Shown here piece after piece: positions 7,904 through 63,055 of a DNA stretch of 64,000 nucleotides. This stretch comes from Candidatus Iainarchaeum sp. (GTDB taxonomy: Archaea; Iainarchaeota; Iainarchaeia; Iainarchaeales; UBA10219). Position 1 is the first letter of the stretch. Every line of letters starts with the position of its first letter. The position numbers and the translations under genes are program-made. The notes beneath the pieces were generated by a model, which was given only the letters and a program-made list of their open reading frames with translations, was not told where the DNA came from and made no database searches. The stretch covers positions 187,189 to 251,188 of the forward strand of contig JAGVWE010000004.1 of the NCBI GenBank assembly GCA_018304425.1, in the 5' to 3' direction.

Positions 7904-7912
7904 CTTTAAATT
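7904..7912 (+). promoter_or_regulatory. TATA box of the trp operon
   Basis: ctttaaatt lies about 28 nt upstream of ATG 7936. This spacing puts the transcription start at or just before the leader ATG, as at several apparently leaderless genes in this window. Confidence 0.6.
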
Positions 7913-7935: not shown

Positions 7936-7980
7936 ATGCACGCGCCAAGAAGGGATTTACTTTGGCACCCGTTCCACTGA
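7936..7980 (+). CDS. trp leader ORF 1 (MHAPRRDLLWHPFH), putative Trp-sensing peptide
   Basis: This 14-codon ORF is the first one downstream of the trp TATA box and probably starts at or near the 5' end of the mRNA. It contains a single Trp codon, TGG 7963-7965, preceded by Arg-Arg-Asp-Leu-Leu (AGA AGG GAT TTA CTT), and stops at 7978-7980. A +1 slip at CTT-TGG leads into a frame that is open until the second copy of the motif at 8048. The same codon string with a His codon heads the his leader. Function as a regulatory uORF is inferred from these coincidences. There is no Shine-Dalgarno sequence, consistent with leaderless initiation. Confidence 0.6.
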   Translation: MHAPRRDLLWHPFH

Positions 7981-8077
7981 TTTAACCAGCGTGCGCACTG
8001 GCAAGGCCAGTTTTTCCCCCGGCTTTTTCAAAAAGGCTGCTAACTTTAGAAGGAATCTACTTTGGCTCCGGCCTTGA
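7964..8077 (+). other. trp leader segment 2, open frame entered by +1 shift and ending RRNLLWLRP
   Basis: Read from GGC 7964, this frame is open for 33 codons to CTT 8060-8062. It then meets the second Trp codon, TGG 8063-8065, and stops at TGA 8075-8077. The end repeats the leader motif as AGA AGG AAT CTA CTT TGG. The two TGG codons are exactly 100 nt apart, which gives the one-base phase difference between frames. A second +1 slip at this TGG yields GGC TCC GGC in the trpD frame. A GTG at 7991 could alternatively start this frame on its own. Confidence 0.5.
7986..8015 (+). terminator. Candidate trp attenuator: competing hairpins and U5 tract
   Basis: actggc (7997-8002) and gccagt (8006-8011) form a 6-bp stem with a 3-nt loop followed by ttttt, a terminator-like element. 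Upstream ccag (7986-7989) can instead pair with ctgg (7998-8001), which excludes the terminator stem. A ribosome that finishes leader ORF 1 at 7980 would cover ccag and favour the terminator. A ribosome stalled at TGG 7963, or one translating through the region, would prevent it. The structure was read by eye and not energy-computed. Confidence 0.5.
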
Positions 8078-9119
8078 ATCGCCTTTAAAGTCAGCCCTCA
8101 GCCAAGCCATTGACGGAAAGCTCTCCCCCACCGCCCTCGGAGAAGGCCTCCGCCAAATCCTCTCCGGCCAGGCCACGGACGCGCAAACCGCTTGCCTGCT
8201 CACCTGCCTCCGCCTGCAAGGCCTCGAAGCCCCCCAGCTGGTGGCAGCGGTCTTGGCCCTCCAGGAATTCATGCACGCCATCCACCCCAACGGCGACCAG
8301 CCCCTCTTGGACATCGTGGGCACGGGCGGCGACCAAGCCGGCACCTTCAACGTCTCCACGGCCTCGATGTTCGCCGCCGCAGGCGCGGGTTGCCGGGTCG
8401 CGAAACACGGCAACCGGGGTTTCACTTCCAAGACGGGCGCAGCCGACGTCCTCGAAAAACTCGGCGTCAACATCGGGCTCTCGCCAGCCGCCAGCGCGCG
8501 GTTATTGGAAGAAACCGGAGCCTGTTTCCTGTTTGCGCCCACTTTCCACCCCGCCCTGGCTTATGTAGCAGGCGTGCGGCGGGAGCTGGGCTTCCGCACG
8601 CTCTTCAACCTCCTGGGGCCCCTTGCCAACCCAGCCAACGCTTCCACGCGGCTCGTTGGCGCCAATTCCCCGGAGAACGCGCGCGTGCTCGCGAAAGCCC
8701 TGCAACGCCTGGGCCTCGCACACTGCCTCGTCGTCCACGGCTCCCAGGGCACGGCCTCCCGCGCTCCCGGCCTCGACGAGCTCTCCACGCTCGGCAAAAA
8801 CCTCTGCATCGAAGTCAAGGGCAAGGCCTCCAAGGAATTCTTCTTGCGGCCCGCGGAGTTCGGCTTCAAGCCCGCTGCACTCGCCGACCTGCAAGTCCAC
8901 TCCGTCGACGAAAGCGCGGCCGCCGTTCTGTCCGTCCTCCGCGGCGAAGCCGGCGCCAAGCGCGACGTCGTCCTCTTCAACGCCGGCGCGGCCATCCACG
9001 TCAACGGCCTCGCGGGTTCCATCGCCGAAGGCATGGCCCTTGCCCGCGGCTCCATTGACTCCGGCCAGGCCCTCGAAAAACTCGAACAACTGAAGGTGAA
9101 ATCGAATGCACTTGCTTGA
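8064..9119 (+). CDS. trpD: Anthranilate phosphoribosyltransferase (start supplied by frameshift or non-canonical)
   Basis: TrpD transfers the phosphoribosyl of PRPP to anthranilate. The glycine-rich PRPP loop is LLDIVGTGGDQAGTFNVST, followed by KHGNRGFTSKTGAADVLEKLG and the RELGFRTLFNLLGPLANP segment. The track start (GTG 8241) cuts off a clear N-terminal helical domain (SALSQAIDGKLSPT...RLQG), which continues in frame upstream. From the in-frame stop at 7983 to 8241 there is no ATG, GTG or TTG. The frame is entered exactly by a +1 shift at TGG 8063, so 8064 is given as the first base of the frame, not as a start codon. The alternative is TTG 8062 with a good ribosome-binding site (agaagga) plus one missing base around 8084-8089. 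Confidence 0.85.
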   Translation, partial: GSGLESPLKSALSQAIDGKLSPTALGEGLRQILSGQATDAQTACLLTCLRLQGLEAPQLVAAVLALQEFMHAIHPNGDQPLLDIVGTGGDQAGTFNVSTASMFAAAGAGCRVAKHGNRGFTSKTGAADVLEKLGVNIGLSPAASARLLEETGACFLFAPTFHPALAYVAGVRRELGFRTLFNLLGPLANPANASTRLVGANSPENARVLAKALQRLGLAHCLVVHGSQGTASRAPGLDELSTLGKNLCIEVKGKASKEFFLRPAEFGFKPAALADLQVHSVDESAAAVLSVLRGEAGAKRDVVLFNAGAAIHVNGLAGSIAEGMALARGSIDSGQALEKLEQLKVKSNALA

Positions 9120-25507: not shown

Positions 25508-25629
25508 AGCCTCCGGCGAGATTTGAACTCGCGACCTGCTGATGGCTTGCGCAACGCACTACCACCCCTTGCGGGGAAGTAGTTACCGCGTTACAAGTCA
25601 GCTGCTCTACCAGGCTGAGCCACGGAGGC
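25508..25629 (-). tRNA. tRNA-Thr (TGT) with 48-nt intron
   Basis: The acceptor is GCCTCCG/CGGAGGC, the D-stem GCTC/GAGC, the anticodon stem GCTGA/TCAGC with loop CTTGTA plus A38, and the T-arm GCGAG-TTCAAAT-CTCGC. The intron occupies 25544-25591 at 37/38 and contains a CCCCGCAAGGGG hairpin. Confidence 0.92.
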
Positions 25630-39273: not shown

Positions 39274-40551
39274 TCATTTCCGTTTCACCTCGAACCGTTT
39301 CTCCACCGACTTCCTGTGCGCGTCCAGCCCCTCTTCCCGGGCCAGGCACGCGACGGCCGGCCGCAAGGCCTCCAAACCCCTGCGCGACAGCCTTTCCACG
39401 TTCTGGAACCGCATGAACTCAAGCACGCTCAACCCGGACGAGAACCGGGCCGCGCGCCCGGTCGGCAAAACGTGGTTGGTGCCGCTCGCATAGTCTCCGG
39501 CCGCCTTGGGACTCCAAGGCCCCAGGAAAACCGTGCCCGCGTTGACGAGCCCATCCACAAACCGTTGGCCGAAGCCCCAGACCTCGGCGTGCTCGGCCGC
39601 GAAGTCGTTGGCGAACCGCAGGACCTGTGCCTCGTTTTTTGCGAGGACAATCAGCCCGTTTCGTTTCAGCGACTGCCGTGCAACTTGGCCGGTCGCCAGT
39701 TCCCCCAACTGCTGCTTTAACTCCTTTTCCACTTGCCGCGCCAGCTTCCGCGAAGTCGTGACCAGCACGCTGCGCGCGTTGGGCTCGTGCTCGGCGGAAG
39801 CCAAGAGGTCGGCGGCCATCCATTCCGGGTTCCCGCTTTTCGCCAGCACCAGCAGTTCGGTGGGCCCGGCCAGCAAGTCGATGCCGACCTCGCCGTAGAC
39901 GAGCCGCTTGGCCGCCGTGACATACGCGTTTCCCGGCCCGAAAACCTTGTCCACGCGTGGAATGCTTTCCGTGCCGTACGCCATCGCGGCAATGGCTTGC
40001 GCGCCCCCAACCTTGAAGATGCGGTCGGCTCCCGCCAGCAGGCAAGCAGCCACGATCAAGGGATTCGCTTTCCCGTCCTTCCGCGGCGGCGTGCACACGA
40101 TTTTCTCGCGCACGCCCGCCACCTGCGCGGGCACCAGGTTCATCAGCGCGGTCGATGGCAGCGGATATCGCCCGGCAGGGACATAGACCCCGACGCGCTC
40201 GATGGGCCGCACGGTCTGCCCCGCGTATATGCCGTTACCGAAGCCTTTTGCCCAGCTTTTAGGCAGGGCCGCCCGCTGGAAATCCGCGAGGTTCTTCGTC
40301 GCGCACTTCAACGCGCTCCGCTGTTCCTTTGTCAGGCCGCGCAGGGCCGCGCGTTTCTCGGCCGCGCCCACTTCCAGTTCGTTTGCCGATAGCGTGACCC
40401 GGTCGAACCGCCGCGTGAATTCGCGCAGGGCAGCGTCGCCGCGCCTGCGCACGGCCTCGAGTATTTCCCGTGCCGCTGGCTCCGCTGCGCGGTTCGCTTC
40501 CGCTTTCGGTTTCACCAACCGTTCATAGTCCGTTCGCGAAACCCCGGCCAA
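39274..40551 (-). CDS. hisD: Histidinol dehydrogenase
   Basis: This 425-residue enzyme performs the last two oxidations to histidine. Motifs are RRGDAALREFTRRFD, ERVGVYVPAGRYPLPSTALM, VFGPGNAYVTAAKRLVYGEVGIDLLAGPTE, AEHEPNARSVLVT and a TNHVLPTGRAARF zinc/His region. The only conventional start is TTG 40551, without a ribosome-binding site. The frame is open up to 40566, just below an in-frame TAG, and joins the strongly initiated upstream leader ORF by a +1 shift at its His codon CAC 40564-40562. A frameshift-fused N-terminus is therefore plausible. Confidence 0.9.
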   Translation of the reverse strand: MAGVSRTDYERLVKPKAEANRAAEPAAREILEAVRRRGDAALREFTRRFDRVTLSANELEVGAAEKRAALRGLTKEQRSALKCATKNLADFQRAALPKSWAKGFGNGIYAGQTVRPIERVGVYVPAGRYPLPSTALMNLVPAQVAGVREKIVCTPPRKDGKANPLIVAACLLAGADRIFKVGGAQAIAAMAYGTESIPRVDKVFGPGNAYVTAAKRLVYGEVGIDLLAGPTELLVLAKSGNPEWMAADLLASAEHEPNARSVLVTTSRKLARQVEKELKQQLGELATGQVARQSLKRNGLIVLAKNEAQVLRFANDFAAEHAEVWGFGQRFVDGLVNAGTVFLGPWSPKAAGDYASGTNHVLPTGRAARFSSGLSVLEFMRFQNVERLSRRGLEALRPAVACLAREEGLDAHRKSVEKRFEVKRK

Positions 40552-40603
40552 CTCGACCCGGGTGAACTAAACCCCTTCTGTCAGTCTTGCGACTAGTCGT
40601 CAT
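40523..40603 (-). CDS. his leader ORF 2 (RRGLVH), overlapping hisD
   Basis: This 26-codon ORF is too short for the track. It has GGAGGTG (40619-40613) 9 nt before ATG 40603 and reads MTTSRKTDRRGLVHPG... to TGA 40525-40523, overlapping hisD by 29 nt. It contains one His codon, CAC 40564-40562, in AGA AGG GGT TTA GTT CAC C. A +1 slip there (GUU to UUC) continues as ACC CGG GTC GAG TTG in the hisD frame, which has a stop just upstream. The layout mirrors the trp leader with His replacing Trp. The SD may be looped by cccaac/gttggg (40635-40630 and 40611-40606). Confidence 0.6.
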   Translation of the reverse strand: MTTSRKTDRRGLVHPGRVGRGFANGL

Positions 40604-40700
40604 AACCCAACCCACCTCCAAGAGAAGTTGTTGGGCTACCCCCAATGATGGAGTAACCCGTGGTGAACTAACTCAACCCGTTCGGTTGAAGAAAAGAAAG

Positions 40701-40773
40701 GGCCGGTGCGGGGAATTGAACCCCGTTCAGAAGGTCCACAGCCTTCTATCCTAACCGATAGACCACACCAGCC
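40701..40773 (-). tRNA. tRNA-His (GTG), with encoded G-1, in the his operon leader
   Basis: The acceptor GGCTGGTG/CACCGGCC includes the extra G-1:C73 pair specific to tRNA-His. The anticodon stem is GAAGG/CCTTC with loop CTGTGGA, and the T-arm CGGGG-TTCAATT-CCCCG. It lies 150 nt upstream of hisD on the same strand and downstream of the MRRNLLHSRR ORF, so it may be cut from the same transcript. Confidence 0.92.
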
Positions 40774-40805
40774 ATTACGCCTTTTTACAAAAGGTGTGCG
40801 AAAAC

Positions 40806-40827
40806 GTCCCATGCGCGGCATGGGACT
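40806..40827. repeat. GTCCCATG/CATGGGAC hairpin
   Basis: gtcccatg-cgcgg-catgggac is a perfect 8-bp inverted repeat between the his leader ORF 1 and tRNA-His. Related GTCCCA hairpins occur near 6243, 41867 and 42284. Confidence 0.5.
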
Positions 40828-40903
40828 GCCCTCAGTATTGGCTTCGCTAAAAGAGGGACAAGCGCTGAGAATAGTTTCATAGCTAGCCAAGTCAAGTAGG
40901 GCG

Positions 40904-40936
40904 TTATCGCCGGCTATGAAGTAAATTCCTTCTCAT
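40904..40936 (-). CDS. his leader ORF 1 (MRRNLLHSRR), putative His-sensing peptide
   Basis: This 10-codon ORF reads ATG AGA AGG AAT TTA CTT CAT AGC CGG CGA TAA. Codons 2-6 match the second trp leader motif except for one synonymous base, and His (CAT) stands where trp has TGG. A TATA box lies about 38 nt upstream. The CAT codon lies in an 8-bp stem with downstream sequence (40913-40920/40876-40883). A +1 slip at CAT enters a frame that stays open through tRNA-His and ends in ELVHHGLLHHWG at 40636. It is recognised only by comparison with trp. Confidence 0.55.
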   Translation of the reverse strand: MRRNLLHSRR

Positions 40937-40969: not shown

Positions 40970-40979
40970 GTTTAAATAG
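40970..40979 (-). promoter_or_regulatory. TATA box for the his leader / tRNA-His transcript
   Basis: CTATTTAAAC read on the minus strand sits about 38 nt upstream of the MRRNLLHSRR ATG and immediately behind the 3' end of the membrane-protein gene 40981-41496. It is the only good TATA between that gene and tRNA-His. Confidence 0.5.
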
Positions 40980-55927: not shown

Positions 55928-58900
55928 TTAACTGTTTCCCTGGATTGCCGTGGAACCCGTTCTTGGCGGACTGCTTGCCGAGTAGCCAATGCAGGTCTTT
56001 CCGGCTTCCAGCTTCTGCGTGAAGTCGTGGATGCTTTGCTTGGCCCCTGCTTGCTTGTAGATGCGGGTGGGGTCCCAGAAGAAGCTGACGCTGGTTCCCT
56101 CTTCCCGGGCGCAGAGCAGCTGGCGTTTAACCAGGCTAAACACGTCCTCCACCGAGTTGATGTAATCGCTGGTCGCCCTTCCCGGCCGGTTGTATTGCAT
56201 GCTGCTGATGCCCTGCAGTTTCACCACGGCACCGTACTCGTCTGCCGTGAGGAAGTTCAGGGAACCCTTGGGTTCTTCGGCCCGCAACACCGCGCTCATG
56301 TGCCTGGGCGTGTAGATAATGGTGCGCAAGTCCACTTTGCCAGCATAATCCGCCTTTGACCAGTCCACGGTGTACGCGTTCTGGAAGTTGAACAAGCGGT
56401 CTTTCTGGGTCGCAGACCTATCCGGTTTGTGGAAGAAAGCCTCGGTGACGAGTTGGCCGTCGAAGTTCAGGCAAGCCCCCGCGCCGCTCCACTCCGTCAA
56501 GCTCGTGCCCGTGTTCACCGGCAACTCCTTGTCAGACAAGAGGTAGAACGCCCCAAACGGTTCGGTGCTTATCTCCTTCTTGTTCATCTCCAGCACCACG
56601 GGCGTGGCATAACTGGGCGCCATCGTCATCTTCACGGCGCCCTCTCCCTGGGTCTCCATGCGCAACACGATGCCCTTGAATTGCGGCGACGTGTTGATGG
56701 TCTTGATGTCTTTTTCGATGGACGTGAAAATCTTGTTCATGGGGTTGGAGCCCGCATCCGGGTAGCTCGTCAAGGCCACGGCACCGTTGTCAATCCGGAC
56801 CGTTTCCGTGGGGTTGAGGTTCACGAAGGAAACCCCGTAGCCCTGCCGGTCAAACCGGTCCTTTTTGAGGCCCACGAGACCGTCAAAGGGCAGCCGGTAG
56901 AACATGGAGTTCGGCACCGGGTCGGCCACCCGGTACAGGGAAACGCTCATCTTGCCTTTGACGTTGCCTTGGTCGTCGAAGAACCGCCAGTCGTTCGTGA
57001 ACAGGGGGCCCAGTTCGACTTCGTATATGCCGGCCTGAATGGTGTTCACGTTGTTTTCGAATCGGCGGGTGAAGAACAGCTTGTTTTGCTGCAGGTAAAG
57101 CTGGTTGAACCCGTACTTCTTGTTGCCGGGCGCGGTTCCCAGGCTATGGAAAGCCGTGTCAGCGTCGGCAAAGGCCACGTTCGTGTAATACTCGCCGAAG
57201 TCCTTGATGAAGTCCTCGGAATAGCCGTCGGCCATGAGCATGGCGTTGAACTTGGTCAACTGGTTGAGGGCCTGGACATTGGGCACGCGGGCAGTCCAGT
57301 TGACGGACGAATCCGCCTTGATGAACCGGTTGATGGTGGACTCCCCATACGTTGTCTCCGTGCTCCGCGGCGTGCCGCACCCCGTTTTCTGCTCGATCTC
57401 GCTGGGCTGCGGGTTGAGGTTCACCCTGAACGCGAACGCCACCGAAGCCGAGTCAATCGAGGCAGCCGAGGACGAAGTGACTTCCGCCACCGCCGTGTAG
57501 ATGCCGTCCGCGAGGTCGGCCATGATGCACTCGCCGGTCTTCGAGTTCACGCCCGCGAGGTTGCTGATGCCCGCCAAGGCAATGGTGCAGGTTTTCAGGC
57601 CTCCCGCCGTCCCGTTCATGCGCACCGAAACGCTGGCATCCGCAGGCGCCGTGCCGTTGTTCGTGGCAGTCACCTGGACGGTCATGTCGTCGCCGTTCTG
57701 GGTGCCGATGATGCTGCTTGCGCCCACGCTTCCGGCATCCACCGTATGCAGTGCGTTGTCCGTATTGAACTGGGTGGTCACCTTGCCGGTTTCATCCGTT
57801 GAGGGGCACGTGAACTGGTAGTTGTTGGCCTTGAGGAATTCATCAAACGCCTCCAGCCTTTTGACTATGGCGATGTTCAATTGCGTGGCGTCGCAGTAGA
57901 TGCCATTGGCATTGTCCGCGTTGCAGGAGTCCGCCTGGATGGCGTCCGAGCCGTTCCAGTTCCAGTTCAGCCTGGTTTTGGGCAAGGCTCCCGGCCCGTT
58001 CACGCCCAAGGAGGTGCCTGCATTGCACGCAAACGTGTCAAAGTCGAGTCTCGGTATCTCGAGTTTCTCGGTTTGGGTGATGAAGCGCACGTGGATGGGC
58101 TCCCGGTACTCGCCGTCGCTGGCTTCCACGCAGGCGCCCTGGTTGGTTGGAGCCCCTATCCAGTAGCCCGCGAACTCCCCGTTATCGCACGTAACGGCCG
58201 CTTTTCCCGCATGCAGGGGGTCCCCGTGGTGGTGGATCTTGGTCAAAATGGTGGCAATCGCGTACGTCGGCTTTTCGTCCAAGATGCCGAGGTTCTGGAA
58301 GTTGACGCCCACGGTTTGAGTGGAATTCTTTGAACCGCAGTCCAGGCAGTCCGCAATGGCGAGGTTGAACATCCCGACCAGTTTTTCCTTGTCCAGGATG
58401 ACGCTTTGCGCGTCGGGTGGGAGATAGATGGCCGCGCCCTTCTTTCCGACCCCGTTAAGGTTGATGACGTAGTCCGGCAGGGTATGCGTGTCCGTGGTAT
58501 CATGGCAGTCCTCGTCGAAGACGCCGAATATCGCCAGGACCACGGCCACGACTACGGCAACGATGATTCCAATGAGGGGCACCGCCCCAGCAATCACGAC
58601 AAGGGCACCCACCACGACTCCCGCGGCAATGGATTTCCCAACCCCTGACTTGGAGGACTCGTCCCACGCGCACATGTCGGCTGTTACGGCTACGTCTTCC
58701 CTCAGCTTGAAGTTCTTGAGGATGGCCGAGTCGGTTTGGCCGGGCGGCGTGTAGAACGTGTACTTGTCGAAGTCCAGGTAGCCGTCGGACTCGACAATCA
58801 CCTTGTACTCTGCTATCTGCCGCCAGCCTCCGCCGGCCGGGCGCGCGTACACGGGAACACCGTAGTAGCCTGGCACGGTTTTCTTCGTCACGAGGACGTC

Positions 58901-61900
58901 ATACGTTTTATCGGGCTTGGCGTTCGAAATCTCGAAGGGCTCGAGGTTGATGCCGCCCTCGCTGGCGCCGCCGCGGCAGTCGTCGTGGTCGCAGAACTTA
59001 AAGTCGACGTCCACGTTGCCGCAGGCCTTGGTGTCCACCTGGAACTTTTCGTTGCCGTCCTCGTCTCCCCGCTTGATGCGCACCCCGTTCTGGGAGTCCG
59101 GCGTGAACTTGACGCACTGGTCGAGGTTCGTAATCAGGAGCTCGCCGTCCACCTTGCTCGTGCCCACCGACACCGGGCCGGTGTCGGACAAGACTTCCGC
59201 GTCCAGGATGACCGAGAACTTGGCGGTCTTGCCGAGCACGCTGGCGTCCGGCAGGGGCGTGAAAGTAAGGCTTCCCACGTACTCCTTGTCGGCCGGCACG
59301 GTCTCGAACAGCTTGGTCTGCCGGTTGGACTGCACCAGCATGGTGGGCGCGGCTCCCGCCGAGGTGTCGTTTAACGTGATTTCCACGTAGCCAACGATGT
59401 CTCCCTGCCACACCATCATGGCAGTCAAGTTGTTCAACCCCATGGGGGTTCCGTCTTTCGTGACGCAGTTGTTTTTGACCACGATTTCCTTGACCAGCTT
59501 GCTGGTGAAAGTCGTGTCCTTCCAGGCATTGGGCTGCACGGTCAGGCAATTGGCTATCTTCGGCTTTTCCGCCAAGCCGATGTCCACCTTCAAGGGCACC
59601 GAGTAAACGTAGGTCGCGGTGCGGCTCTCGTTGCTCAACTCGATGTAGAGGCTGCCCTCCACGCTCGTCTTTTCCTTCAACAGCTTGGCCAACGCGGAGA
59701 CCGTGGCCTTGACGTTCAGGCTCTTCGTCGTGTTTTCCTCGAGCCAGAAGGGCTGCACCGTGTACTGGTTCAGGTAGTTCTGCATCTTCTGCAGGTCGAG
59801 GAGGCCCCGGAACTTGTCTCCCTTGACCAGGAGCTTGGAGATGTAGAGTTTCTGGGGCACTTTGCTGGTAATCTTCAGCTCGGCGTCGCGCTCGTTGTTG
59901 GTCGTCAGCCCCAGGGAATAGGTGAGGGTGGCGGGCGAGAAGTCCACGGGCTTGTCGCTGATTTCCAGGGCAACCGCTTCGCCCATGAACCCGCGTTTCT
60001 CGACTTCCACCGTGAGCTTCGTGCCCGGCGGGGAAGCAGGGAAGACGAATTCAACGGTTCCCTTGGGCCCCGTGGTCTTAATCTGCACGGTTTCCGCGAG
60101 GTCGGGCGTGCGGCGCCGCAACCGCACCAGCGCACCGTCGGTGTCAAAGCCCGAGTTCTCGCCACCCGCATAGGTTATGTGGACAATGACCCGGGTCTCG
60201 ATGTAGGCCGGGATAACATCCTGGTCCAAGTCGATTTTCAGCTGCTGCTCGGAGAAAATCGTGAACGCCGTCAACCGGTTGAAGGCCTCCCTCCCGCTGG
60301 AGACCATCAGTTGCTGTACGTTGGTCTGCCCTTGCTTGCGGGCCTCGACTTCGAGCTGGGTCTTGGCGGTCTTGCTTTGCGTGAACCGCCCCAAGCCGAT
60401 GGGCGGCAACTCGAACCGTTGCCCGGTCTCGCTGAAGGGCGTGGAGTCCGCGTTGACGACCGTGTACTTGTCGATGACCAGGCGGTCATCCATTTTGAGG
60501 CCGTCCTGCGTGACCCTTATCCGGAGGTTGGCGTTGTCGTGGACGGTGGGCGAGTCATTCGTGACCGTGCTCTCGAACCGGTACTTCTGGAAGACCCGCA
60601 ACTGGAAGGGCTCCTTCAAGTACACGTCGTCAATGGGGTCGAACACTTTCTCGCTGTAGCAGAAGCCGTTGGCGCAGGACTCGGCCTGGCCGACATTAAA
60701 GGTCTTATCGTAGCTGTTGGCATACAATTCCTTCTTGTCCGCGGTTTCCTTCCTATCCCCCAACGTCGAGTCCACGGGGTCGCGGAGGAACTTGCCCTGC
60801 AATTCCTCGGCTTGGATGCGGTAACTCAAGGGGAGGGCCGCGCCTGCCTGGGCTTCCTGCCTCACCTTCAGCTCCACGTCCACGTTGTAGATGCCGGGCT
60901 GCATGCCCTTATTATCCATCCACGAGACCTCGGCCCACTTCGCGTCCCCGTTCGTCAACAGGGCCCGGTCGTTGCCGGCCGGCGGGTTCCAGGTCGTGCC
61001 CCGGATGATGCTGGTAGTCGGGATGTTCAGGTTGTTGACGAACCAGGCATCCTTTTCCACGGCGTTCTCGGAGCCCGTGCGCAGGAAAAACGTCAAGGCC
61101 TTCAACGTCGAAGCACTCGGTACCTGCACGTAGAACCGCACCTTGTACCTTTCCCCGGGCACCATGGCCTTGACCTTGGTGTTGGTCTTGTCGAACAAGC
61201 CCTCGAACACGATTTTGGGTTCCCTGCCCTCGATTTTTTCGACCAGCAGGGCGTTGAATTCGATGGTCTGGTCGGGGAACACTTGTTCCACCCTGGAAGT
61301 CCAGGAAGTCCTCCCCGTCTTCGAAACCCGGGCGTACACCGCTGTATCGGCCTTTGTCGGGTGAGTGGCAACGCCCTTGTCGTCCGCGGAAAGCGTGCCC
61401 AGTTTGGTGCCCGCGGCATTGAACACTTCCACGTCCACGAAGGGCACGCCCTGCCCGTCCGCGTCCCTGGCGTTGACTTTCAGGGTGCCGAAGCCGATTT
61501 TCATGTCAATGGTGAACTTCGTTATTTGCTTGACCAGCAGTTCCTGTTCCGGGCTCTTGCCCGTGGCGGGGAACTTCTGCGCGTACGCGAGATACTTGCC
61601 GGGCTTCAAGCCCTTGAATCGGACTAGGCCCTTGTCGTCAGTCGATGGCGCGCCACAGGCCTCGCAAATGAACTTGGTCAGCGCGTAATACATGTTGACC
61701 TTGGCGTTGACCACCGGCTGCTTTTCCTCGTCCTGCACCAGCACCTCGACCTGCCCCGAGTTCTCGGGCGTCAGCTTTTCCAGCTTTACCTCGACGTTCA
61801 AGGGCTGGGCCTTCGAGGCGTTGCTCGCGTCAACCGCCACGTCCGCCGAGGAAAGGTAGTCGTCGTGGTAGGCTTCCACGAAGTACTTGCCCTTTTCCTC

Positions 61901-63055
61901 CAAGCTGAAGGTAACCTGGCTCTTGCCTTGTTCCACGGCCTGCGAGCCAATCGCTTCCCCGGTCTCCCGCTTGAGGGTCACCTTGGCCGCCGTCACGGCG
62001 TTCCCCGAAACCTTGTCCAAGACCTTGACGTTGATGACGGCCTGGACTTCCTTGGTCAGGGTCACGTCAACGGTCTTGGTCTGGTCCGCGTAGACCACGA
62101 ACTTGTCGGACTGCGCGTTCGCATACGCCCCCGAAGTATCCGTTACCACCACGTAATAGGTGCCGGGCGTCGTCTTGAAGGCCTTCTCGCCGTAACTCGT
62201 GAAACCCTGGTCCACGGAAACCCCCACCGCGTCCCTCAACTCGACCTGGGTGCCGTCCAAAGCCGGGTTCAACCGCACCAGGATTCCTCCCTCCCGGACA
62301 ACGGCCTGCTGCAAGTGCAATACGCCCGAGCCGTCGTCGACAAACGAGTCCGAGGAAATGCCGCTGCCCTCCACGTTCACGAGCACGCTGCCACAGCCGT
62401 CCGGCGGCACATAGGACAGCGTTCCATTGGTCACCGTGTAAGTGTCCTGCAGGAAGCTCACTCCCAGGTTCGAGCAACTCAGCCGCACCGTCAAGGGCTT
62501 CAAAATCTTTTGCCCCGAGGCATCCGTGAAGGAAATGCTTTTGCCCAGCGCTTCCGGCCCCAGGCCCCCATTCCCGGTTCCCCCCGCTTTTTCGGCCAAG
62601 GCCAGCCGTTGCTCGGCCGTGTCCTTGCCGAAGACAAACGACTTCTGCACGCCTTCAAAGCCGTCCCTGGTGACTATCAAGGCCACCTGGCTGCCCTCCG
62701 GCAACTCAATGGATACCGCGCCCTGCGAGTCCGTGGTCAACGTGAACGTGTCCGCGTCCGCGGTCAAGGAAACCGAGGCATTGCCCAACGGGTTGCCGGC
62801 CGCGTCCGTGACCTGCAGGCTCAAAACGGTTTTGGGCCCCAATGGGGGCGGCGTGAGGCCCGGCTGCAACAAGAAGAACGCGCCCACCGCGCCGACAACC
62901 AGCAGCAGGACCAGCAACAGGAAGCTGGGCATGACCTGGTCGATGGGGTCCACGACCTTGTAAATCGGGATGACCTTGTTGAGGCCGTCCAGTACCTTGT
63001 AATAACCGTCTTCCAGGGAATAATAAAAGTCTTTGAGGTTCTGGCCCAAGCCCAT
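55928..63055 (-). CDS. Giant membrane-anchored cell-surface protein (2375 aa)
   Basis: A short cytoplasmic N-terminus and one transmembrane helix (about 43-63, VMPSFLLLVLLLVVGAVGAFFLL) are followed by at least four CnaB/carboxypeptidase-regulatory-like beta-sandwich repeats (for example VTDAAGNPLGNASVSL, VLVQDEEKQPVVNAKVNM, VNARDADGQGVPFVDVEV). Further beta-rich domains follow. Near 1472-1510 a long hydrophobic stretch (GVVVGALVVIAGAVPLIGII) could be a hairpin of two helices. The last 400 residues form a domain shared with the next upstream gene. It is probably an exported adhesin or coat component. The gene starts 12 nt after the stop of the paralog. Confidence 0.7.
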   Translation of the reverse strand: MGLGQNLKDFYYSLEDGYYKVLDGLNKVIPIYKVVDPIDQVMPSFLLLVLLLVVGAVGAFFLLQPGLTPPPLGPKTVLSLQVTDAAGNPLGNASVSLTADADTFTLTTDSQGAVSIELPEGSQVALIVTRDGFEGVQKSFVFGKDTAEQRLALAEKAGGTGNGGLGPEALGKSISFTDASGQKILKPLTVRLSCSNLGVSFLQDTYTVTNGTLSYVPPDGCGSVLVNVEGSGISSDSFVDDGSGVLHLQQAVVREGGILVRLNPALDGTQVELRDAVGVSVDQGFTSYGEKAFKTTPGTYYVVVTDTSGAYANAQSDKFVVYADQTKTVDVTLTKEVQAVINVKVLDKVSGNAVTAAKVTLKRETGEAIGSQAVEQGKSQVTFSLEEKGKYFVEAYHDDYLSSADVAVDASNASKAQPLNVEVKLEKLTPENSGQVEVLVQDEEKQPVVNAKVNMYYALTKFICEACGAPSTDDKGLVRFKGLKPGKYLAYAQKFPATGKSPEQELLVKQITKFTIDMKIGFGTLKVNARDADGQGVPFVDVEVFNAAGTKLGTLSADDKGVATHPTKADTAVYARVSKTGRTSWTSRVEQVFPDQTIEFNALLVEKIEGREPKIVFEGLFDKTNTKVKAMVPGERYKVRFYVQVPSASTLKALTFFLRTGSENAVEKDAWFVNNLNIPTTSIIRGTTWNPPAGNDRALLTNGDAKWAEVSWMDNKGMQPGIYNVDVELKVRQEAQAGAALPLSYRIQAEELQGKFLRDPVDSTLGDRKETADKKELYANSYDKTFNVGQAESCANGFCYSEKVFDPIDDVYLKEPFQLRVFQKYRFESTVTNDSPTVHDNANLRIRVTQDGLKMDDRLVIDKYTVVNADSTPFSETGQRFELPPIGLGRFTQSKTAKTQLEVEARKQGQTNVQQLMVSSGREAFNRLTAFTIFSEQQLKIDLDQDVIPAYIETRVIVHITYAGGENSGFDTDGALVRLRRRTPDLAETVQIKTTGPKGTVEFVFPASPPGTKLTVEVEKRGFMGEAVALEISDKPVDFSPATLTYSLGLTTNNERDAELKITSKVPQKLYISKLLVKGDKFRGLLDLQKMQNYLNQYTVQPFWLEENTTKSLNVKATVSALAKLLKEKTSVEGSLYIELSNESRTATYVYSVPLKVDIGLAEKPKIANCLTVQPNAWKDTTFTSKLVKEIVVKNNCVTKDGTPMGLNNLTAMMVWQGDIVGYVEITLNDTSAGAAPTMLVQSNRQTKLFETVPADKEYVGSLTFTPLPDASVLGKTAKFSVILDAEVLSDTGPVSVGTSKVDGELLITNLDQCVKFTPDSQNGVRIKRGDEDGNEKFQVDTKACGNVDVDFKFCDHDDCRGGASEGGINLEPFEISNAKPDKTYDVLVTKKTVPGYYGVPVYARPAGGGWRQIAEYKVIVESDGYLDFDKYTFYTPPGQTDSAILKNFKLREDVAVTADMCAWDESSKSGVGKSIAAGVVVGALVVIAGAVPLIGIIVAVVVAVVLAIFGVFDEDCHDTTDTHTLPDYVINLNGVGKKGAAIYLPPDAQSVILDKEKLVGMFNLAIADCLDCGSKNSTQTVGVNFQNLGILDEKPTYAIATILTKIHHHGDPLHAGKAAVTCDNGEFAGYWIGAPTNQGACVEASDGEYREPIHVRFITQTEKLEIPRLDFDTFACNAGTSLGVNGPGALPKTRLNWNWNGSDAIQADSCNADNANGIYCDATQLNIAIVKRLEAFDEFLKANNYQFTCPSTDETGKVTTQFNTDNALHTVDAGSVGASSIIGTQNGDDMTVQVTATNNGTAPADASVSVRMNGTAGGLKTCTIALAGISNLAGVNSKTGECIMADLADGIYTAVAEVTSSSAASIDSASVAFAFRVNLNPQPSEIEQKTGCGTPRSTETTYGESTINRFIKADSSVNWTARVPNVQALNQLTKFNAMLMADGYSEDFIKDFGEYYTNVAFADADTAFHSLGTAPGNKKYGFNQLYLQQNKLFFTRRFENNVNTIQAGIYEVELGPLFTNDWRFFDDQGNVKGKMSVSLYRVADPVPNSMFYRLPFDGLVGLKKDRFDRQGYGVSFVNLNPTETVRIDNGAVALTSYPDAGSNPMNKIFTSIEKDIKTINTSPQFKGIVLRMETQGEGAVKMTMAPSYATPVVLEMNKKEISTEPFGAFYLLSDKELPVNTGTSLTEWSGAGACLNFDGQLVTEAFFHKPDRSATQKDRLFNFQNAYTVDWSKADYAGKVDLRTIIYTPRHMSAVLRAEEPKGSLNFLTADEYGAVVKLQGISSMQYNRPGRATSDYINSVEDVFSLVKRQLLCAREEGTSVSFFWDPTRIYKQAGAKQSIHDFTQKLEAGKTCIGYSASSPPRTGSTAIQGNS

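Follow-up and report, generated by a model that had tools for sequence, protein, structure and literature searches.

A Candidate Starvation-Sensing +1 Ribosomal Frameshift Element in Amino Acid Operons of Iainarchaeota

Introduction

The known system closest to the element reported here is that of bacterial release factor 2 (prfB, RF2), in which a short frame-0 open reading frame (ORF) carries a Shine-Dalgarno (SD)-like tract a few nucleotides before a P-site CUU, the A-site codon is slow, the gene proper lies in the +1 frame, and expression is autoregulated by what is scarce (PMC5009743). CUU with the following pyrimidine constitutes the conserved RF2 shift site, which is aided by the upstream SD sequence; +1 shifting is more frequent when the A-site codon is read slowly (PMC5009743). 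The hungry-codon shifting studied by Gallant and colleagues and the CUU-AGG-C site of Ty1 likewise depend on a slow A-site sense codon that promotes the shift (PMC5009743). The present analysis concerns a short element, AGAAGG-RRT-YTA-STT with a His or Trp codon directly after it, in a 64,000-nucleotide stretch of Candidatus Iainarchaeum sp. (GenBank assembly GCA_018304425.1, contig JAGVWE010000004.1, positions 187,189 to 251,188; hereafter the window). Judging from the sequences, this element very probably represents a programmed +1 ribosomal frameshift site that senses shortage of one aminoacyl-tRNA.

Several features separate it from prfB: the A-site codon is a sense codon (CAY, TGG, CCA, or TGY) instead of the stop UGA of RF2, the host is an archaeon, GUU is used besides CUU, the copies may be serial and in tandem, re-initiation at the next gene would often be involved, and the downstream genes encode amino acid enzymes, tRNAs, and tRNA ligases. 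The hungry-codon and Ty1 cases represent a starvation error and a rare-codon retroelement, respectively, whereas here the site would be an evolved sensor with an operon-matched codon. The leader ORFs of trpL, hisL, and pheL also contain a regulatory codon matching the amino acid of the operon; in the archaeal leaders, however, there is one such codon and no evident terminator/antiterminator pair, and the read-out would be a change of frame, the frameshifting at pheL being considered incidental (PMC5009743). The T-box shares with the element a codon-like specifier matched to biosynthesis and aminoacyl-tRNA synthetase genes, but no T-box match was found in the window, and the element is translated and belongs to archaea, not bacteria. 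According to a 2016 review no example of functional starvation-specific trans-frame products was known (PMC5009743), and in a 2021 review of archaeal recoding the term "hungry codon" occurs in the reference list only, with tryptophan, histidine, and DPANN unmentioned. No report of this system was found in the open-access literature; the sensing principle is rated as new and built from known parts, and the RF2 cassette is its nearest counterpart in working principle.

Distribution of the Element

The his leader of the window encodes the peptide MRRNLLHSRR (ATG AGA AGG AAT TTA CTT CAT AGC CGG CGA TAA, 40936-40904 of the minus strand), in which the sequence-only reading had recognized a mirror of the trp leaders with His in place of Trp. 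The element lies at 40933-40919 (-), 7948 (+), and 8048 (+), and the exact matches of AGAAGGRAYYTACTT at both loci (7948 (+), 8048 (+), and 40919 (-)) place this resemblance far beyond chance. When two mismatches are allowed, AGAAGGRAYYTACTT gives four matches in the window versus 0.25 expected, a number reached by no shuffle; the additional match, AGAAGGGGTTTAGTT with CAC as the next codon, is located where hisD begins (40579-40565 (-)). In the whole genome (1.48 Mb, 7 contigs) six matches to the relaxed pattern AGAAGGNNTYTANTT were obtained, and none in the reversed control. The next codon of all six fits its context (W, W, H, H, C, C), and the genome-wide matches lie near amino acid genes, as anticipated. 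Exact search of 85,462 prokaryote genomes with ATGAGAAGGRATTTASTTCAY returned matches on six contigs only, four of them titled Diapherotrites/Candidatus ainarchaeum and two titled "archaeon"; one of the six is the complete genome GW2011_AR10.

Among relatives (75 genomes of the order, mostly metagenome assemblies) related elements precede tRNA-His/hisS, his genes, tRNA-Trp/trpE-G-D, tRNA-Pro/proB/proS (locus L068), and proC/proS (L190), with CCA as the sensor codon of the pro loci. Sequencing error is an unlikely cause given this recurrence in independent assemblies. The variable part is the upstream tract (AGAAGG, GAAAGG, AAAAGT, AATAGT, or GGTGA), NNA-STT and the sensor being retained; the conserved core reads as an SD-like purine tract, then A, CUU or GUU, and a pyrimidine-initial codon. 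For further analysis 45 context-matched sites were chosen by the element and a matching downstream gene or tRNA, with frame disregarded: 34 carry CAY before His genes or tRNA-His, 9 carry TGG before trp genes, and 2 carry CCA before pro genes, with no cross-matches. All sensors seen (CAY, TGG, CCA, TGY) begin with a pyrimidine.

Both tests proposed with the sequence-only reading, the genome-wide search and the presence of the element in trp and his leaders of relatives, therefore support its idea of a cassette dedicated to sensing, in which the codon that comes next corresponds to the operon. Its suggestion of a peptide motif RRxLL did not hold, since the conservation is at the nucleotide level and the residues before the sensor vary in relatives (SDLL, ERDLL, GDSL, GELL, GELV) with NNA-STT unchanged; of the Leu, Ile/Val, Arg, and Thr versions that it anticipated none was found, the sensors seen being those for His, Trp, Pro, and less securely Cys. 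An operator for a DNA-binding protein was also rejected, because the element keeps a fixed frame within an ORF and is followed by a codon that changes with the operon.

Some matches were discarded. Those with an open frame 0 at L181, L185, L186, and L187 lie inside genes and are chance matches, and the matches of family f10 to AGGGATTTACTTCATCAC (L064, L109, L110, L198-L201) are false positives, whose complement reads as a C/D-box guide RNA. These complements (GTGATGA...CTGA...GTGATGA...CTGA) have the arrangement GTGATGA-AGTAAATCCCTG-CTGA-...-GTGATGA-TTTAATCCAACT-CTGA, and the D' guide of the apparent C/D-box RNAs could pair with CAGGGATTTACT, its complement and the frameshift element's core, which is possibly a coincidence or possibly reflects methylation of RNA with that sequence. 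A CAT leader with a 72-codon +1 ORF at L213 (contig 31 of genome G006) has no recognized His gene or tRNA within reach.

Reading Frame Organization

At the context-matched sites frame 0 ends at a stop 2-17 codons past the element, and the longest downstream frame is +1 in 41/45, +2 in 4/45, and frame 0 in 0/45. This bias would have a probability of about 1e-15 if the sites were independent, a figure which is weakened by their relatedness, the sites spanning several families of the order. Beyond holding a sensor codon, the element has the layout of a +1 frameshift site.

The trp locus of the window comprises the following features.

7905..7910 (+): TATA box TTTAAA, about 26 nt ahead of the start codon (ATG) of the trp leader, read from sequence
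7936..7980 (+): trp leader 1, frame 0, MHAPRRDLLWHPFH and stop; the ATG is at 7936 and the peptide reads MHAPRRDLLW...
7948..7965 (+): frameshift site 1, AGAAGG GAT TTA CTT and hungry codon TGG
7964..8077 (+): +1 frame after site 1, 37 codons, with site 2 in frame inside
8048..8065 (+): frameshift site 2, AGAAGG AAT CTA CTT and hungry codon TGG
8064..9119 (+): trpD, 351 codons, +1 frame after site 2

Archaeal promoter spacing suggests that the trp leader mRNA probably has little or no 5' untranslated region. If the ribosome shifts to +1 at the first CTT of this leader, the product is GTRSTDLTSVRTGKASFSPGFFKKAANFRRNLL, which brings the second copy into frame; another +1 shift there yields GSGLESPLKSALSQAIDGK..., which is TrpD. 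The trpD frame contains no ATG, GTG, or TTG between the upstream stop and codon 59, and this codon is inside the N-terminal domain: the profile TIGR01245 matches from residue 20 (E=1.9e-103) and Glycos_trans_3N covers residues 18-69. A strong RNA fold as frameshift stimulator was looked for in the trp leader and not seen, the folding being no better than that of shuffles (z=+1.1).

The his locus, located on the minus strand, has two leaders.

40971..40978 (-): his leader TATA box TATTTAAA, about 35 nt upstream of the leader A start
40904..40936 (-): his leader A, frame 0, MRRNLLHSRR and stop
40916..40933 (-): frameshift site A, AGAAGG AAT TTA CTT and hungry codon CAT
40636..40917 (-): +1 frame after site A, 93 codons, open across the whole tRNA-His gene
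40700..40772 (-): tRNA-His (GTG), between leader A and hisD
40523..40603 (-): his leader B, frame 0, MTTSRKTDRRGLVHPGRVGRGFANGL and stop, preceded by GGAGGTG
40562..40579 (-): frameshift site B, AGAAGG GGT TTA GTT and hungry codon CAC
39274..40563 (-): hisD, 429 codons, +1 frame after site B; TIGR00069 matches from residue 32 (E=3.8e-148)

Site B has TAG in the hisD frame, and hisD has a TTG at codon 4 as a possible start.

Nine tandem pairs without an independent start between the copies were found, and all of them are spaced by 3n+1 nucleotides (28-391 nt) with no stop between. By this register one +1 shift at the first copy would lead into the second copy in frame, and a second +1 shift would enter the gene; the second +1 frame reads trpD, the helix-turn-helix (HTH) gene described below, hisG (L045), or hisE (L046, L084). 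The two copies at the his locus of the window, 354 nt apart, are an exception to this register; here copy B is equipped with an ATG and a GGAGGTG of its own. Several his operons have a third leader, which overlaps the end of the second +1 frame by ATGA or lies close to such an overlap. The element of this leader is GGTGATTCACTTCAT, GGTGAGCTACTTCAC, or GGTGGTTCACTTCAC, and its +1 frame is HisG in the cases traced (L172, L202). At the trp locus L067 the +1 ORF that follows two tiers ends in ATGA at trpE.

The remaining two copies in the genome are in tandem on another contig, 28 nt apart, and are followed by TGC and TGT. They lie upstream of a small HTH gene (L075, 7895-8221 (+); winged-helix-like, with a weak MarR_2 match), divergent from cysS, which was called as cysteinyl-tRNA synthetase from its translation. 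The register is MQESRNASLSFPRRDLL, +1, ASPIRRDLV, +1, HTH protein, the same layout as in trp. The Cys case is based on one locus and a neighbouring gene, and this sensor is less secure than those for His, Trp, and Pro. The HTH protein behind two Cys-codon shift sites is a candidate cysteine-starvation regulator.

Downstream Genes

The combination of a short frame-0 ORF and a start-less gene in the +1 frame was observed for trpD of the window and for trpE (L115), hisG (L045), hisE (L046, L084), and a racemase gene (L066). No start occurs until codon 76 in trpE of L115, where the TrpE profile begins at residue 12-14, until codon 66 in hisE of L046, until codon 34 in the racemase, where the Pfam match extends from residue 12, and until codon 18 in hisG. 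The GUU-type copies carry TAG in the gene frame inside the element, and hence no upstream start could serve their genes; for the same reason the frame-B sequence EGIYF was rejected as a conserved N-terminus of the downstream proteins. Two genes behind the element belong to the Asp/Glu racemase family (L066, 97-771 (-); L153, 754-1500 (-)), one with a Trp codon and standing alone, the other with a His codon and inside a his operon.

A different arrangement was found where the leader is separated from hisS by tRNA-His: the +1 ORF passes through the tRNA gene, and at 12 of the 19 sites its stop is no more than 20 nt from the hisS ATG, four of these 12 having the two overlap by 4 nt (ATGA), and frames other than +1 do not end near this ATG, except one +2 frame (L079). 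The element and the tRNA gene of family f8 are 129 to 213 nt apart, always by a multiple of three in the six loci measured, and codon phase is kept in 97% of aligned columns of the spacer. Selection on the +1 spacer peptide was not seen, as substitutions are equal by codon position (0.28, 0.30, 0.31); the peptide is thus not conserved, and only openness, that is, the passage of ribosomes, seems to matter by this comparison. LAGLIDADG homing endonuclease ORFs are located between the his leader and hisS at L055 (1764-2828 (-)) and L102 (304-1502 (-)), immediately 5' of tRNA-His. As they share the leader's +1 frame, the shift would be required for translating them too.

Trp-rich tails terminate the +1 ORF before tRNA-Trp and trpE at L061, L063, and L175 (YAWHWL, YAWRWL, and FWAWRLP, each followed by a stop), and these look like another sensing step. 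The tRNA-Trp gene is intron-containing in L062, L063, and apparently L175.

Proposed Mechanism

In the proposed scheme a short leader ORF would lead the ribosome to AGAAGG/AGUGA/GGUGA-NNA-CUU(or GUU)-X, where base-pairing of the purine tract with the 16S rRNA 3' end would hold CUU or GUU in the P site with the sensor codon X in the A site. When the cognate aminoacyl-tRNA is plentiful, X would be read and translation would end few codons on; when it is scarce, the A site would stay empty, the P-site tRNA would slip one base forward (CUU to UUY), and translation would continue in the +1 frame. The +1 frame may then be the start-less biosynthetic gene itself, or the ribosome may meet a second in-frame copy and be tested again, or it may cross a tRNA gene, stop at the start of hisS or another his gene, and re-initiate there. 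The predicted junction peptides include ...RRDLLGTR... and ...RRNLLGSGLESPLK (window trpD).

The element itself, the match of codon and operon, the frame architecture, the missing starts, and the recurrence across families are read directly from the DNA. From these we infer the slippage, its rise on starvation, and the roles of the SD tract and the P-site codon, on which several observations bear. The 16S rRNA ends in GGATCACCTCC, and the energy of pairing between this end and the tract reaches -4 kcal/mol or stronger in 98% of copies versus 17% of random stretches, the search pattern having fixed AGG/AGT or GGTG; GGUGA of the third-tier copies is a perfect complement of UCACC. The P-site codon is CUU in 44 of 57 copies and GUU in 13. 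The base after it is C or T in the 57 copies, part of which were searched with Y; in a scan leaving this base free the sites in amino acid context all had C or T. Re-pairing of CUU to UUY needs a pyrimidine-initial sensor, with which all sensors seen comply.

It is likewise likely, at a slightly lower confidence, that amino acid starvation is sensed in Diapherotrites/Iainarchaeota by an evolved hungry-codon +1 frameshifting, with a modular site (SD-like tract, NNA-CUU/GUU, sensor codon) placed singly or serially before tRNA, tRNA ligase, and biosynthetic genes, where full-length enzymes or re-initiation would require slipped ribosomes and tandem copies would act as a multi-step AND gate.

Evaluation of Alternatives

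Ordinary leader-peptide attenuation, by which a ribosome stalled in frame 0 at the sensor would alter RNA folding or termination without any frameshift, agrees with the short leader ORFs having the matching codon just past the promoter and with the hairpin and T-run sequences between leader and genes, and transcription and translation are coupled in archaea. It leaves unexplained the open, gene-carrying +1 frame of 41 among the 45 sites, since for attenuation frame 0 alone matters, and likewise does not account for the 3n+1 spacing, nor the end of the +1 ORF at the hisS start, nor how start-less trpD, trpE, hisG, and hisE are made; moreover, the sensor is one codon and not a run, and the trp leader fold does not differ favourably from shuffles, though archaeal terminators could escape notice. 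Attenuation is accordingly judged improbable. A structured RNA that binds uncharged tRNA directly in a T-box-like way, with the codon as specifier, would suit a fixed sequence followed by a variable codon fitting the operon and the cognate tRNA gene often present in the leader. At the gathering threshold, however, the Rfam matches in the window are only tRNAs, no strong fold is seen, and an RNA receptor would need neither the fixed ORF frame nor the tandem 3n+1 register, so that such a receptor is very improbable.

The downstream genes could also start at GTG, TTG, or a non-canonical codon in or just after the element by re-initiation once the short leader has been read, the shared frame following from the way the starts are spaced. 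GTG is indeed present in the +1 frame of AGTGATTTACTT (VIYF...), and a TTG within 5 codons is available for hisD, the HTH gene, and trpE of L194; yet such a codon is missing from the AGGGAT and AGGAAT copies, and no start appears for 34-76 codons in trpD, trpE (L115), hisE (L046), and the racemase (L066), although trpD, trpE, and the racemase show homology from about residue 12-20 onward. Internal initiation also leaves CUU/GUU, the matching sensor, and the +1 frames open to a second copy unexplained, and it is held to be slightly less probable than attenuation. The frameshift interpretation itself meets with several difficulties. Because of the TTG within 5 codons after the shift, window hisD, the HTH gene, and trpE of L194 would by themselves be insufficient as proof, and for AGUGA-type copies initiation at the +1 GTG is an alternative. 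The +1 ORF in the trp loci L061, L062, L063, and L175 is just 30-51 codons long and ends before tRNA-Trp, that of his leader A in the window stops before leader B and does not enter it, and substitutions in the +1 spacer are not concentrated at third codon positions. The SD pairing test is partly circular because of the fixed pattern, GUU in the P site re-pairs poorly in +1 by simple slippage, and the lone racemase with a Trp sensor is not fully explained.

Other Features of the Window

A tRNA gene with a large insertion (122 nt, 25508-25629 (-)), matched by Rfam and missed by ARAGORN, is probably intron-containing. The ORF at 55928-63055 (-) has 2375 codons, which is very large for this genome.

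Significance

Being very small and modular, and because exchange of a single codon re-addresses it, the site could serve as a synthetic sensor. If the frameshift interpretation is true, the element would represent a natural use of hungry-codon frameshifting, studied so far as an error of starved cells, and a translation-based amino acid sensor in archaea, in which a sense codon replaces the stop codon of RF2 mRNA. It would also account for broken-looking, start-less genes of these organisms, which annotation pipelines likely truncate or call pseudogenes.
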